From Thermoproteota archaeon (GTDB lineage: Archaea > Korarchaeota > Korarchaeia > Korarchaeales > Korarchaeaceae), in contig JAMOVA010000069.1 of assembly GCA_027061785.1 (NCBI GenBank), positions 1 through 40,567 on the forward strand: a stretch of 40,567 nt of DNA. Direction: 5' to 3'. This document shows positions 18,616-24,808 of this stretch, in pieces (the first letter of the stretch is position 1; every line of letters starts with the position of its first letter). The notes beneath the pieces are model-generated. The model saw only the letters and a program-made list of their open reading frames with translations, was not told where the DNA came from and ran no database searches. The translations under genes and the position numbers were made by a program.

Positions 18616-19473
18616 ATGGGGGGCGGCAACATCAGGGGTTATTTGAGGCTCTTCCGTCCCAAGAATGCCTTAATGTCCATCTTGGGAGTTCTTGTCGGCT
18701 GGGTGAACGCATCAGCTCCCCCTGAACTCATTCCGAATCTGATCTTGGCTTGCGCTGTGCCGCCCCTCATCCTGATGGCCGGTAATGCGGTGAACGATTA
18801 CTTCGACGCTCCCATAGACAGGGTGAATAAGCCAGACAGACCCATACCATCCGGGGAGGTCTCTCCTAGTGAAGCGATGAGTTCCTATATCGTCTTGTCC
18901 CTCATAGGGGTTGCCTTGAGCATCCCCTTAGGTGTGGAGGAGTTCATCATCGCCTCCCTCTTCGCCCTCTCTTGGTACCTCTACGCCCGATGGATCAAAG
19001 CGATGGGTTTGGTGGGTAACATCCTAGTCAGCTTGGGGGTCGCATTTACCCTCATATTCGGAGCCTTGGCGGCCGATGGACTCAATGGAAAGGTGATCCT
19101 ATTCTCCATGATAGCCTTCACATCCAACTTAGCTAGAGAGGTAGTGAAAACCGTGGAAGACCTGAAAGGCGATTCAATCTACGGCTTGAGGACAGTAGCG
19201 GTGGTGATGGGCCCTAGGGGAGCAGGCGCTTACGCCTCTCTGATGATCGTTGTGACATCGGTCCTGACGCTGATACCTCCCCTAGCCGGCCTGACGGGGC
19301 CAGCGTACTTTCTCCTCTCAGTGGTCCTCTCCCTTCCCCTACTGCTCTACTCCGCTAGGGAATCGCTCAAAATAGATGAGATTAAGGCTAAGAGACTGAG
19401 CAGCATGCTGAAACTCTCCATGTTCCTCGGAATAATGGGGATGCTACTGGATCCCTTCATTCAAGGAACCTGA
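18616..19473 (+). CDS. Digeranylgeranylglyceryl phosphate synthase (UbiA family)
   Basis: Adds the second geranylgeranyl chain in archaeal ether-lipid synthesis, in the membrane. The two aspartate-rich UbiA motifs are NDYFDAPIDRVNKPDRPIPSG (about 60-80) and EVVKTVEDLKGD (about 175-190); the latter form is typical of DGGGP synthase. Seven to nine hydrophobic segments span the 285 residues. The ATG is at 18616; the ribosome site is weak. The 3' end overlaps the convergent CBS gene by 17 bases. Confidence 0.9.
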   Translation: MGGGNIRGYLRLFRPKNALMSILGVLVGWVNASAPPELIPNLILACAVPPLILMAGNAVNDYFDAPIDRVNKPDRPIPSGEVSPSEAMSSYIVLSLIGVALSIPLGVEEFIIASLFALSWYLYARWIKAMGLVGNILVSLGVAFTLIFGALAADGLNGKVILFSMIAFTSNLAREVVKTVEDLKGDSIYGLRTVAVVMGPRGAGAYASLMIVVTSVLTLIPPLAGLTGPAYFLLSVVLSLPLLLYSARESLKIDEIKAKRLSSMLKLSMFLGIMGMLLDPFIQGT

Positions 19474-20245
19474 GGAGGCTCCTCCTCTCTAGGACGCCGA
19501 TCACCTTATCGTCTTCGTCGACCACGGGAAGAGCTGGTAACCCGGATTCTAGGAAGAGGTCCCTAGCTTCATTCACGGATACGAACCCTCTGAGCCTCCT
19601 TGGTGCCTCCACCATCACGTCCTCCACTAGGATCTTCCTGACCACATTGTCCATACGTATGGGATCCACGTTCTCTCTGACACCTAGGAAAGCCCTTGCC
19701 AGATTCCTCTCCGTAACTATGCCTATGAGCTTGCCTCCTTCCACCACGGGCAGTATTCTGGCGCCTCTCTCAAGCATCACGTTCCTCGCGTGGACTATCC
19801 TCTCATTTGGCATTATCTTCGGGTGATCCTCCTTCACCAAGGCCTTGATATCTCCCTGATAGTCGAGAGATCTAACCAGATCCGTCTCGGTGACTATCCC
19901 CACTAATTTACCGCCCTCAACCACAGGTAGCGACCCAATTCCCTTCTCGAGCATGATGGAGACTACTTCCTTTACGGATGTTGAGGGTCCGATGGTAATT
20001 GGAGGCTCGGTCATCAGGGCGCTGACGTATATCCTCCTGGCCGGTATCCTCTCGAACCTAGATGAGCCTAAGCCCTCCATTATGTCCCTTATGCTGAGAA
20101 CGCCGACGACCCTATCTCCTGAGGTGACGACCAAGTGGTTCACGTCGTTCCTCTCCATGAGGTCCAATGCGACCTCCACAGTTTCTCCCTTATCGATCGT
20201 GATTACAGAAGTCCTCATGAGGCTAGAAACATCATTCCGAGGCAT
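19457..20245 (-). CDS. Four-CBS-domain protein A
   Basis: About 262 residues made wholly of four CBS motifs, starting near residues 8, 75, 140 and 205. Each shows the usual pattern, such as MTEPPITIGPSTSVKEVVSIMLEKGIGSLPVVEGGKLVGIVTETDLV. CBS pairs bind adenosine nucleotides or SAM and report energy state. No effector domain is attached, so it probably regulates a partner. I chose ATG 20245, which follows GGGGTG; GTG 20254 is possible. It overlaps the upstream CBS gene by 14 bases and is the last of a four-gene run (RqcH, CBS x2, CBS x4, CBS x4). Confidence 0.88.
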   Translation of the reverse strand: MPRNDVSSLMRTSVITIDKGETVEVALDLMERNDVNHLVVTSGDRVVGVLSIRDIMEGLGSSRFERIPARRIYVSALMTEPPITIGPSTSVKEVVSIMLEKGIGSLPVVEGGKLVGIVTETDLVRSLDYQGDIKALVKEDHPKIMPNERIVHARNVMLERGARILPVVEGGKLIGIVTERNLARAFLGVRENVDPIRMDNVVRKILVEDVMVEAPRRLRGFVSVNEARDLFLESGLPALPVVDEDDKVIGVLERRSLLRFLE

Positions 20246-21053
20246 TCGCCACACCCCTCACCAAGGCCTTCTTGTCGATCACACCCACCAGCTCGTCCCC
20301 ATCGAAGACGGGGATCGCGCTCACTCCCCACTCGATCATGTACCTAGCAGCCTTGGCCGCATCTTCTTCAGGATTGAGCCTTATCTCTATCTCCTTCATT
20401 ATGTGCCTGGCGGTCTTCACCCGGACGTCCACGCTGATCCTTCCTGTCCTCGATGGGATGAGAACGTACTTCTTAGCGAGGTTGGGTTCCCACAGGGCTA
20501 TGTCTCCCTCGGTTATCATGCCTAAGTAGCTGCCCTCCGATCCAACTATCAGGACCCTGTTACCGTCGGCTATCAGCTTGGCCACTTTCTTGAGGTTGGT
20601 GTTCGGGGCTATCACCTGATAGTTCTCGTCCATCAGATCCCTTATCTTGTAGGAGCCCCTCATATTCTCAGCGAAAAATCTGGAAACGTCGGTCTCCGTC
20701 AATATGCCCACCAAGGACGAGTCCTTCACCACCGGGAGACCCCCTATACCCCTCTCGCTCATCACCTTGGAGGCGGTCCTGACGAGTTCGTCAGGCCCTA
20801 TCGTTACTGGATTTCTCGTCATGAACCTATCGACTAGGGAGTTCTCCGGATTCCTCCATCTCCAAGGAGCACCCCTCCTAGCTAGGGCCTTGGCAATATC
20901 AGTCGCGGTAATTATACCGACTACTTTATTTCCCTCAACAACCACCAATCGCCTTATTTTCCTCTCCAACATGAGGTTCCGGGCCCTACCGAGGGTATCT
21001 CGGGGGGTCACGGTAACGACTCTATCGGTCATATAGTCCTTTACCTTAGCCAT
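20232..21053 (-). CDS. Four-CBS-domain protein B
   Basis: About 273 residues with four CBS motifs. The first three are clear (VKDYMTDRVVTVTPRDTLGRARNLMLERKIRRLVVVEGNKVVGIITATDIAKAL and two more). A linker rich in charged residues (about 185-205) precedes the fourth (AAKAARYMIEWGVSAIPVFDGDELVGVIDKKALV). The third is the most divergent (NTNLKKVAKLIADGNRVLIVGSEG). ATG 21053 or the TTG just before it is the start; an AGGGGGT lies 10 bases upstream. Paralogous to the neighbours on both sides, which points to tandem duplication. Confidence 0.88.
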   Translation of the reverse strand: MAKVKDYMTDRVVTVTPRDTLGRARNLMLERKIRRLVVVEGNKVVGIITATDIAKALARRGAPWRWRNPENSLVDRFMTRNPVTIGPDELVRTASKVMSERGIGGLPVVKDSSLVGILTETDVSRFFAENMRGSYKIRDLMDENYQVIAPNTNLKKVAKLIADGNRVLIVGSEGSYLGMITEGDIALWEPNLAKKYVLIPSRTGRISVDVRVKTARHIMKEIEIRLNPEEDAAKAARYMIEWGVSAIPVFDGDELVGVIDKKALVRGVANASE

Positions 21054-21073
21054 CAAAATCGGGTACCCCCTTT

Positions 21074-21562
21074 CTATACTAGGCTCCAACCCTTCTTAGA
21101 CTTAGCTAGTCTCAACCTCTCGGACAGGATGAACCATATGTGCGGAGCCACCTTCAGGATATCACGGGAGGAGACTATCCCTACCACCTTCTTATCGGAG
21201 TTCACCACTATCAGCCTTCTGACGTTGTGCTCCACCATGATCCTAGCAGCCTCGTCGATATCTATATTGTCCCTGACTATGACAGGCTCCTTGGTCATGA
21301 CCTCCTCTACCTTAACCTCCTCAGGTCTCCTTCCGTCCTTCTTAGCTATGTACCGGGAGATCAGGTCCCTCTCCGTGACTATCCCCCTCAGGACCCCCCT
21401 CTCCATCACAACCACGGAGCCTATGTTGTGCTCACTCATGAGCTGCGCTACCTTGAAGACCGTATCCTGAGGGGTCACGGTGATCAGGTTCCTGTTCATT
21501 ATCTCGGATACCTTCAGCCTGAACTTAGGTTCATCACCTTTCTCTGGTAGCAGAGACCACAT
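21074..21562 (-). CDS. Two-CBS-domain protein
   Basis: About 162 residues with one Bateman pair: VSEIMNRNLITVTPQDTVFKVAQLMSEHNIGSVVVMERGVLRGIVTERDLISR and VEEVMTKEPVIVRDNIDIDEAARIMVEHNVRRLIVVNSDKKVVGIVSSRDI. The basic tail (RLRLAKSKKGW) could bind nucleic acid or a partner, which is speculation. ATG 21562 has GGAGTGAT upstream, inside the end of the RqcH gene, so translation is coupled to it. GTG 21571 is the alternative. Confidence 0.9.
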   Translation of the reverse strand: MWSLLPEKGDEPKFRLKVSEIMNRNLITVTPQDTVFKVAQLMSEHNIGSVVVMERGVLRGIVTERDLISRYIAKKDGRRPEEVKVEEVMTKEPVIVRDNIDIDEAARIMVEHNVRRLIVVNSDKKVVGIVSSRDILKVAPHIWFILSERLRLAKSKKGWSLV

Positions 21563-21567
21563 AACTA

Positions 21568-23469
21568 TCACTCCACTATCGTAACTTTTCCAGGGGGCAA
21601 CGCCCTCACTATATCATCCACACTCACTTCCACAGGCTCCGCCGGGGGTTCTGAGTCTCCACGTATTTTAATGTTTTCTTGCAGCCAGCTCTCCAGCATA
21701 TTCTTTAACACTTTTGCGGCCTCTTCCTTACCGGTAGATCCAGGTCTAAGGCATACAGAGTAGAGGAAGGGAGCTCCCGGAGGTGCCGCAGTCAATTTGA
21801 TCCCGTCGGGAGTCTCTTGAAAACCCACGCAGACCTCGAGCCTCACCCTCAAGTAATTCCTCTTACCAGTTATGTAAAAGCTCCCCTTAGGGAGATACAG
21901 TCCGGAAGGCGCGTGTTTCGAGACCTGACTCCCCTTGACGTAATAAACGTCCACTGAGGTCAGACCCTCTCTCCACGCTCTAGAAAACACCCCAGCTGCG
22001 GTGGCCGCTTGATTCACTGATGCCTCATCCGCCTCTCCCCCATCCAGCTTGAGCACCACCACTGAGCCCCCCGGCATGTCAATGTGGAAGAACAGGTCGT
22101 TCTCGTCCAAGTACTTGGACACTATCTCGGCGTTGGTTTGGGCATCCCTCCCCCCTATCACCAAGAAGCCCCCCGATGTATAGAACCACCTGAATCTCTC
22201 GTACCATCGGAGCTTCCGTCTCTTAGTCGGGGCCTTTTTGGAAGCCCTCTCCTCGGCCTCACTCCTGAGCCTGACCAACTTCCCCTTCAGGGACGAAATG
22301 GCCGCATCGATCCTCTCATACTTCTCTCGATATTTCTTCGCCCTGCTATAGTAGTCGGAGGCGTTTTCAGTGGCTGATTTGAGCATGTCTAGCTGAATCT
22401 CCCGATCGTCCAGATTCAACACGACCTTGCCGGACTTCCTGTCGACTGAGACTATGAGGGGAGATGAGGCCCCCCTCCTGGCCTTCCTCAGCGCCTCATC
22501 CACCTCGGCTAGGTGAAGATATATGAGATCACCCACAGACCTGTACTCCTCCGCCTTTTCCGCATACTCCTTCTTCAGCTCTTCCTGCCTTTTGATCTCA
22601 ACCTCCAACGACCTTATCCTCGGGTCTTCCTCGTATTCAGGCCCCTCAGCGGTATAATAGAGCTGGATCGCCCTAGACAGGCTGGGCACGGATCTCCTCT
22701 CTATCTGGAGGTGCTGTAGCGGGAAGGCCGAGAAGCTTACCACTTCATCGCCCTGAACGTAAATCATGGGTTCGGTCTCCCTATTGAGGAACGAATGGAT
22801 CAGATCAGCCAGCTCATCGATAGGAGCCTCGGTCTCGGGTAGCGGCGACTTCAGATCCAAGCCCGTCAGGTGAGAGATCTCGTCCGTGTAGGGGGGGCCC
22901 ACCCCGAAGGACCCTATCAGCACCTTCCACAGGGGCAGTTTCTCCTTTACACCCTCCCTGAGGAGCGCTAGTATGGCATCCCTATCTCTAGGATCCAGCT
23001 CAATCCCCGGACCAGCTGGTGGTCGGTAGATCTCGCCGGGCCTGATGGATCTACCCTTGAACTCGGCTCTCTTGAGGGGTAAAAGGATCTTACCTTCCTG
23101 AGCGAGTATGAGGTTCCCTCCCCCGAACAGTTCCACCACAAGCTGCATATCACCGAAAGATAAGCGAAAGATTCTCTCGACCCCTATCTGAGATATCTCA
23201 GTGAATCTTCTACCCTCTAAGTGCTTTCTGAGGGCCATGATGAACGAGGGTGGGCTCTGAGGCTTTGGCCACTTGAGGTCCGTCAGAAAGACGAAGCCGC
23301 TCAGGTCGATCACGAGCTCCCTGCTCCCATCAACTTCCGGGTAGAAGACGAGGGAGAAGACGCCATCATCCAGCATATACACTTTCTTAAGTATCTTACC
23401 CTCCAGAGAGAGCAGCTCTCTAACCAAATGCCTGAGATCCAGCCCAGTAACCTTTCTCTTCCGTCCCAT
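21568..23469 (-). CDS. rqcH: RqcH/Rqc2/NEMF homologue (NFACT protein)
   Basis: Ribosome-associated quality control factor: in other lineages it binds the obstructed large subunit with its peptidyl-tRNA and directs C-terminal tailing. The 633 residues show NFACT-N (LDLRHLVRELLSLEGKILKKVY, MALRKHLEGRRF, DMQLVVELFGGGNLIL), a long coiled coil (about 280-430), and the NFACT-R domain (KLRWYERFRWFYTSGGFLVIGGRDAQTNAEIVSKYL, then DLFFHIDMPGGSVVVLK). The N-terminal residues expected to contact the tRNA (D, R near 11-14) are present as LDLRHL. ATG at 23469, with almost no leader. Divergent from the EMC6-like membrane protein and followed by CBS genes. Confidence 0.94.
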   Translation of the reverse strand: MGRKRKVTGLDLRHLVRELLSLEGKILKKVYMLDDGVFSLVFYPEVDGSRELVIDLSGFVFLTDLKWPKPQSPPSFIMALRKHLEGRRFTEISQIGVERIFRLSFGDMQLVVELFGGGNLILAQEGKILLPLKRAEFKGRSIRPGEIYRPPAGPGIELDPRDRDAILALLREGVKEKLPLWKVLIGSFGVGPPYTDEISHLTGLDLKSPLPETEAPIDELADLIHSFLNRETEPMIYVQGDEVVSFSAFPLQHLQIERRSVPSLSRAIQLYYTAEGPEYEEDPRIRSLEVEIKRQEELKKEYAEKAEEYRSVGDLIYLHLAEVDEALRKARRGASSPLIVSVDRKSGKVVLNLDDREIQLDMLKSATENASDYYSRAKKYREKYERIDAAISSLKGKLVRLRSEAEERASKKAPTKRRKLRWYERFRWFYTSGGFLVIGGRDAQTNAEIVSKYLDENDLFFHIDMPGGSVVVLKLDGGEADEASVNQAATAAGVFSRAWREGLTSVDVYYVKGSQVSKHAPSGLYLPKGSFYITGKRNYLRVRLEVCVGFQETPDGIKLTAAPPGAPFLYSVCLRPGSTGKEEAAKVLKNMLESWLQENIKIRGDSEPPAEPVEVSVDDIVRALPPGKVTIVE

Positions 23470-23493
23470 ACAGCCTTCCTCGGGTCAGCTCCC

Positions 23494-23503
23494 TTTATAT
23501 ATT
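23494..23503. promoter_or_regulatory. TATA box shared by rqcH and the EMC6-like gene
   Basis: TTTATATATT in the 51-bp divergent gap. It lies about 29 bases from the rqcH ATG on one side and 22-25 from ATG 23521/23524 on the other, so both messages would be nearly leaderless. Confidence 0.55.
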
Positions 23504-23520
23504 CAATTGGCTACTGGGGC

Positions 23521-24393
23521 ATGATGAAACCAAAGCACAAAGTCTACTACTTCAGGATAGCTCTATCGTCCCTAGTCGGGCTAGTGAGCGGTATCGTTGG
23601 ACTCACTCCGATGGAGGGACTGAGCCTCTTCTTGCTTGCTTACTTCCTCGTTACACCTCTTTCCCTCAAACTCTGGGGGGACGAACTGAAAGATATGGGA
23701 CTGATGAAGCTATACAGGGAGGCCTTAGGATCATCTTTCCTAGCTCTCCTCTTAGTCTGGACCTTAGTCATTAATCTAATGGGTCCAGGAGTCCCAATTT
23801 ATGTGGTAAAGACATCTCAGAGTGGTATATATCCCATACAGACGATAGATGGTCGAATCGTTGGTCCCGACGAGAGACCCCTAGCCGGATACAATGCCGT
23901 CAATCTGAAACTCGCGGGCCACAACATAGAGGACATATACGTAGGCTCCTACGCTAAAATGAGAGACGTAACGAAAGTCACGCTGGGCCACACGGTGGTG
24001 ACTCTATCCAGTGGAGAGCTACGCATCTCCGGCGTGTACAACCTGTCGATCGAGTCGGATTATAAGAGGATGAGCAAGCTGCTGGGGAACGTAACCATGT
24101 TCGTGAACGGGACCCTGATCATAAACGGGACTATGAAGCTCAATCCCGGCGAGACCAAGGAGCTTACCTACAACTCCACCGTGATGGAAGTGTCCCACAC
24201 CGCTCCCGGCGTCCTCGACATAGAGATTAACTCGACGAGGGATAAGATCACCGAATACCCCGTTTCAGTCTTCATAAGCTCAATAGAGGAGAAGGAAGGC
24301 TATATTTTCGTATTTGACTCGGTTAAACCATTCTGGAAGACTAGGACAGCTAGGGTAGATGACAGCTACGTCGTCGTCCTGCCCCCGGGGTGA
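23521..24393 (+). CDS. EMC6-like membrane protein with large outer domain
   Basis: A 290-residue protein. The longer frame starting at 23221 runs antisense to rqcH; the TATA box and gap support ATG 23521 (or 23524). Residues 1-90 hold three hydrophobic helices (about 11-29, 31-50, 69-87). The segment FRIALSSLVGLVSGIVGLTP, followed by FLLAYFL and LLLVWTLVINLMG, lines up with the three-helix core of EMC6, including the S-x-x-x-G-x-x-x-G-I-x-G-L-T pattern. EMC6 is a subunit of the insertase complex that places membrane proteins. Residues 90-290 are a polar, beta-rich domain with several N-glycosylation sequons (NLS, NVT, NGT, NST), so probably outside the cell. It is followed closely by archease. 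Confidence 0.65.
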   Translation: MMKPKHKVYYFRIALSSLVGLVSGIVGLTPMEGLSLFLLAYFLVTPLSLKLWGDELKDMGLMKLYREALGSSFLALLLVWTLVINLMGPGVPIYVVKTSQSGIYPIQTIDGRIVGPDERPLAGYNAVNLKLAGHNIEDIYVGSYAKMRDVTKVTLGHTVVTLSSGELRISGVYNLSIESDYKRMSKLLGNVTMFVNGTLIINGTMKLNPGETKELTYNSTVMEVSHTAPGVLDIEINSTRDKITEYPVSVFISSIEEKEGYIFVFDSVKPFWKTRTARVDDSYVVVLPPG

Positions 24394-24397
24394 TATC

Positions 24398-24808
24398 GTG
24401 GGCAGGAAGCTAGTTGACGTCGAAGCTGATGTGGGGTTCGAGGTGTGGGCTAGCGACTTGAACTCCCTCTTCGAGGAGGCGGCCCTCGCCATGTACGAGG
24501 TAATGGTGGATGTCGATAGCGTGAATCCAGTCGTGGAGAAGAAGCTGGAATTGGAATCCGAGGACCTATCCCTGCTCCTCCACTCATGGCTGTCAGAGCT
24601 CCTGTTCATCACGGATGTGGAGGGGCTGGTATTCTCGAAGTTCGAGGTCAATATTCAGGGTACCAAGCTCAGGGGCAAGGCGTGGGGCGAGCCCGTGGAT
24701 CCCGAGAGACACAAGCCCAAGACCGAGGTGAAAGCGGTCACCTACTACAAGCTCAAAGTGGAGAAAGAGGGAGACCTCTGGAGGGCCGTGGTTATTCTAG
24801 ACATTTGA
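24398..24808 (+). CDS. Archease, RtcB activator
   Basis: Helps RtcB ligase become guanylylated and allows multiple turnovers. About 136 residues from GTG 24398, which is three bases after a GGGGTGAT site at the end of the upstream gene. Family blocks are DVGFEVWASDLNSLFEEAALAMYEVM, HSWLSELLFITDVEGLVFSKFEV, GKAWGEPVDPERHKPKTEVKAVTYYKLKVEKEGD and the final VVILDI, whose aspartate is part of the metal site. The usual HTADVG start reads VEADVG here: the metal-binding Asp is kept, but the preceding His-Thr is changed. RtcB is at 2749-4200, not adjacent. Confidence 0.94.
   Translation: MGRKLVDVEADVGFEVWASDLNSLFEEAALAMYEVMVDVDSVNPVVEKKLELESEDLSLLLHSWLSELLFITDVEGLVFSKFEVNIQGTKLRGKAWGEPVDPERHKPKTEVKAVTYYKLKVEKEGDLWRAVVILDI

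Follow-up and report, generated by a model that had tools for sequence, protein, structure and literature searches.

A Korarchaeota EMC6 ectodomain as a putative outward-facing extension of an ancient membrane-protein insertase

Behind a short membrane segment resembling EMC6, a gene in a 40,567-nucleotide stretch of korarchaeal DNA (the window, meaning the whole stretch analysed) encodes a long polar extension, which raises the question of whether the product is a subunit of an archaeal membrane-protein insertase, and what its additional part might do. In the eukaryotic EMC, lumenal domains surround EMC3-EMC6; archaeal insertases are, to our knowledge, known almost only from sequence. The occurrence of EMC6 in archaea has already been described, and its pairing with EMC3 there has been predicted (PMC8675477; PMC7616256). 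A literature search, with most subscription journals outside its reach, returned no paper describing an ectodomain on EMC6, a korarchaeal EMC, or EMC6-rqcH synteny. Our analysis indicates that the gene probably encodes a korarchaeal EMC6, the partner subunit of EMC3, with an N-glycosylated beta-domain of ~200 residues on the outer face of the membrane.

The gene, its EMC6 core and EMC3

The gene starts with ATG at 23521 and encodes 290 residues, and its frame, coordinates and motifs (SSLVGLVSGIVGLT, FLLA and LVWTLVINLM in the translation) proved to be as first annotated. The protein is larger than the ~85–120 residues usual for EMC6 family members without an extra domain, a range that is typical, not defining. 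Its two parts and the neighbouring features are listed in Table 1.

Table 1. Features of the EMC6 locus (positions in the window)
Feature	Position	Strand	Basis or remark
CBS-domain genes (three, consecutive)	19457..21571		beside rqcH; kept in the korarchaeal family
rqcH / NEMF (NFACT), head-to-head neighbour	21568..23469	-	PF05833 1.3e-48, PF05670 7e-31
EMC6-rqcH pair	21568..24393		further pair loci: L051, L052, L054, L055, L057, L059, L088, L089, L094, L098, L103
Divergent intergenic region	23470..23520		51 bp between the EMC6 and rqcH start codons; one TATA-like element
TATA-like TTTATATATT	23494..23503		~27 bp before EMC6 start; closest relatives carry this motif, or a similar one, at the corresponding position
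EMC6 coding sequence	23521..24390	+	290 residues
EMC6-like membrane core, residues 1-88	23521..23784	+	three transmembrane helices (Pfam, PDB profile matches, Foldseek)
C-terminal ectodomain, residues 89-290	23785..24390	+	six N-x-S/T sequons; all-beta apart from one helix; probably extracellular
Stop codon TGA	24391..24393	+	sequence
archease	24398..24808	+	PF01951 1.1e-46; GTG start inferred; begins 4 bp after EMC6 stop

Pfam EMC6 (PF07019; curated gathering cut-off 23.3 bits) matched residues 8-83 with 32.9 bits in the whole protein and with 36.2 bits when the first 90 residues were searched alone. A genome-wide search with the family revealed a single copy (35.4 bits), and 26 of the 27 korarchaeal homologues individually matched Pfam EMC6 at E<1e-3. 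When the phylum-wide alignment was used as a profile against all PDB chains, OPTI (1e-9), yeast EMC6 (2.2e-6) and human EMC6 (1e-3) were retrieved. An AlphaFold2 model built with 27 homologues (mean pLDDT 90.4, pTM 0.71) places three helices (residues 4-26, 30-56 and 69-87) before an all-beta domain containing one helix. The top Foldseek matches of the model included OPTI and human and yeast EMC6 (prob 1.00, TM 0.62–0.73 over target, rmsd 2.0–2.7 Å), with TM 0.70–0.73 between the helices and human or yeast EMC6. Profile search and predicted structure thus both support the EMC6 relation that the initial annotation had proposed for the first 90 residues; in the structure comparison the helices overlay EMC6, and the outer half is modelled as a confident beta-rich domain.

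Among close relatives, dN/dS was 0.04–0.11 for the helices and 0.09–0.17 for the ectodomain, and in most pairs the dN of the ectodomain was about two to three times that of the helices. Both parts are therefore maintained under purifying selection, the outer part mostly evolving faster. The 27 orthologues, together with the low dN/dS, ruled out a frame error or a chance open reading frame.

EMC3, whose co-occurrence had been put forward as a check, is present in 27 of the 29 genomes of the phylum. In the genome of the window, EMC3 (PF01956; G000:C2:49198-49650) lies directly after secY in a ribosomal-protein cluster and is of the usual size (167 aa; L080:9187-9690, -). We take EMC3 to be the archaeal Oxa1-type insertase, DUF106/Ylp1-like. 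Since EMC3 is ordinary, the core insertase would be the ordinary archaeal one, and the novelty would lie on the side of EMC6, with which EMC3 presumably pairs in Korarchaeota.

Fold and location of the ectodomain

The ectodomain was modelled with high confidence on its own (AlphaFold; pLDDT 93.1, pTM 0.88) as a beta-rich domain, and it carries the conserved motifs GIYPI, GYNAV and RTxRVDDxYVVVL. In the window protein it measures 202 aa and contains no cysteine. Searches of Pfam and NCBIfam yielded no significant match to it; the sole weak match, PF23823 (E 0.07–0.14), falls far under its cut-off, and a fusion with a known domain was rejected. A profile search against PDB sequences gave nothing credible, the matches at E 0.5–1.3 being noise. 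Foldseek retrieved nothing at E<=0.001 from the PDB (best listed TM over query ~0.2) or from a viral fold library (best listed TM over query 0.28), and a viral origin was discarded for want of a match in that library. YidC P1, PsbP and lipocalin-like folds were likewise rejected, with TM-scores too low and rmsd >10 Å, and the beta-sandwich of YidC P1, EMC7 and EMC10 did not emerge as a shared fold. Judged against the PDB and the viral library, the model fits a fold that is either new or has diverged strongly.

The N-x-S/T sites noted in the outer half exceed chance. The ectodomain of the window protein holds six sequons, where shuffling predicts 1.6, and its helical part holds none; across the ectodomains of 16 representatives, 103 sequons were observed against 28 ± 4.8 expected (about fourfold; 0 of 1000 shuffles as high), and they are nearly absent from the helical parts. 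In the 27 proteins, the N-termini contain 77 K+R versus 19 D+E, and the second loop contains 108 K+R versus 77 D+E. The genome of the window also encodes an STT3/AglB oligosaccharyltransferase. EMC6 has its N-terminus inside and its C-terminus on the lumenal or outer side, and the C-terminal sequons, the basic N-terminus and second loop, and the presence of STT3/AglB fit this topology. The korarchaeal EMC6 is thus predicted from sequence to be N-in/C-out and its ectodomain to be N-glycosylated, in keeping with the extracytoplasmic, glycosylated appearance attributed to it earlier.

Distribution and the pair with rqcH

EMC6 was matched in 27 of the 29 genomes of the phylum, in every case in an open frame of 280–409 aa (counted stop to stop). 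Of the other two, one (G007) shows part of an ectodomain where a contig ends, and the other (G027, 94% complete) gave neither an EMC6 nor an ectodomain match. G027 has EMC3 and a merely weak NFACT match, and its missing EMC6 may reflect loss, an assembly gap or extreme divergence. In each of the 24 genomes of its own family, the ectodomain profile gave a single match, invariably behind EMC6, and it had no match in the 121 archaeal genomes searched outside the phylum. Within family f1 the ectodomains are clearly homologous; the sequence link is weak for f2 (E 2.6e-3) and f3 (E 1.5e-4), and was not detected between the main family and f4 or f5, the most distant genera, although these have the same architecture; hhalign gave P 3.5e-4 for the last 34 columns in the phylum-wide homology comparison. 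The f4 and f5 ectodomains, with no detectable relation to the main family, speak against taking a tight molecular job as established.

Beyond the phylum, the Pfam model gave few, short EMC6 matches, and a broader profile (A6) found matches in 195 of 394 archaeal genomes; among the matches listed, EMC6 stands alone, without the ectodomain. Eight inspected non-korarchaeal proteins extend 0–14 residues beyond the domain, longer frames being due to an upstream open frame or to N-terminal tails. One such long frame (489 aa, G079) was dismissed as a candidate, as it includes an upstream open frame and the protein stops 3 residues past the domain. An EMC6 elaboration of a different kind was seen at L105:75-629 (+), where the cytoplasmic loop joining helices 2 and 3 carries an insertion of ~65 charged residues. 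The findings beyond the phylum agree with the report of one EMC6-like protein in each of nine archaea queried (PMC8675477), and the Pfam and A6 matches and the inspected frames bear out the smallness that had been ascribed to other archaeal EMC6-like proteins. The initial description of the outer domain as fused holds for the two-part layout, which is real, but the wording may mislead: the ectodomain was seen nowhere else, and may just as well have arisen in place as a C-terminal extension.

The gene lies divergently from rqcH and directly before archease, as originally annotated. In family f1 this layout is conserved, the order being UbiA, three CBS genes, rqcH (divergent), EMC6, archease, and ribosomal L3, L4, L23, L2 and S19 (L4 to S19 named from sequence). 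Archease is likely co-transcribed with EMC6. The TATA-like element is possibly a promoter shared by EMC6 and rqcH, which would explain the closeness of the two genes; its distance would suit leaderless transcription both ways. In distant korarchaeal genera, rqcH is still head-to-head with EMC6 wherever contigs cover it. A divergent pair was also present in 48 of 84 non-korarchaeal genomes, the 48 coming from 14 families, with 39–439 bp between the matched stretches; the count covers genomes in which both genes could be placed, draws on the best-scoring matches listed, and does not represent a random sample. The two genes are ~1.4 kb apart in family f14, and the pair is absent from families f10, f26 and f46. 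Persistence of the pair across many families suggests a functional link, and makes it a candidate for tying ribosome-associated quality control to the membrane insertase.

Possible function and comparison with known systems

Collectively, these observations suggest that the ectodomain of Korarchaeota EMC6 is an outward-facing extension of an ancient membrane-protein insertase. The three-helix core would join EMC3 in an archaeal Oxa1-type insertase, and the ectodomain would overhang the EMC3-EMC6 groove at its outer mouth, the place taken in eukaryotes by the lumenal EMC1/7/10 crown. There it might receive, shield or hand on client tails and loops that have just been translocated, or provide a docking site for an outer partner; by analogy, a job at the groove mouth appears the most likely one. 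The capture of clients or partners suggested in the initial annotation is likewise a putative role.

Alternatively, the core may be EMC6 and the ectodomain unrelated to insertion, a passive spacer or anchor such as an S-layer tether, or a heat protection by glycosylation. The faster divergence of the ectodomain, its high sequon density and its undetected homology in f4 and f5 fit such a role, but the ordered, confident fold, the conserved motifs and the purifying selection suggest a specific surface, and we regard a passive part as rather unlikely. It is highly improbable that the protein gave up insertion and now works on its own as a receptor or envelope protein, keeping the EMC6 helices merely as an anchor. 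The new domain is indeed large, and the gene is distant from secY and EMC3; however, archaeal EMC6-like genes are reported to lie generally away from the secY/yidC cluster (PMC8675477), the protein is the sole EMC6 of its genome, EMC3 is kept in 27 of the 29 genomes of the phylum, and the helices are more constrained than the ectodomain.

The head-to-head pair, in Korarchaeota and in the other archaeal families, favors a third reading, in which EMC6 and RqcH jointly clear ribosome-stalled membrane-insertion intermediates in a pathway that includes the ectodomain. A compact shared promoter may nevertheless persist without a joint pathway, three families do without the pair, and the ectodomain is predicted outside the cell while RqcH is inside; we consider this reading unlikely. 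We hold as doubtful, too, the boldest combination, namely that the ectodomain is a new fold, built into the insertase and acting on its outer side as a chaperone or docking platform, an independent archaeal counterpart of the EMC lumenal crown, and that the EMC6-rqcH pair seen across archaea is the mark of a ribosome quality-control pathway linked to the membrane.

If the ectodomain acts at the groove mouth of the EMC3-EMC6 insertase, a whole archaeal phylum would have solved the problem of the outer side through an extension of EMC6 itself, offering a compact natural two-subunit system in which to study the function of insertase outer domains. The pairing with rqcH makes a link between insertion and ribosome quality control testable in genetically tractable archaea bearing the pair.

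Among known systems, the periplasmic P1 domain of bacterial YidC and lumenal EMC1, EMC7 and EMC10 resemble the ectodomain in being beta-rich and, given its predicted topology, in facing outward from an Oxa1-type insertase, a comparison of working only. A structural match to P1 (3bs6) is absent (TM-score 0.20, prob 0.10), and EMC1, EMC7 and EMC10 are absent from the 50 best PDB fold matches listed; with no fold match, the likeness is of position, not homology. OPTI/RAB5IF (C20orf24, the TMCO1 partner; 7tut_9), the top PDB profile match to the korarchaeal helices, has extra N-terminal residues and no C-terminal ectodomain. Other archaeal EMC6-like proteins (M. jannaschii MJ0606 and Lokiarch_50810; PMC8675477) belong to the same family, have a presumed EMC3 partner and are often encoded head-to-head with rqcH, but they measure ~85–185 aa, and the inspected ones end no more than 14 residues past helix 3. 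Known EMC6 (PF07019; 6ww7_F, 6wb9_6) has ~110 residues and stops after helix 3, without an outer domain of its own, whereas the three-helix core (TM-score 0.72–0.73), the GIxGLT motif after helix 1, the single copy and an EMC3-type partner in the genome are shared with the korarchaeal protein.
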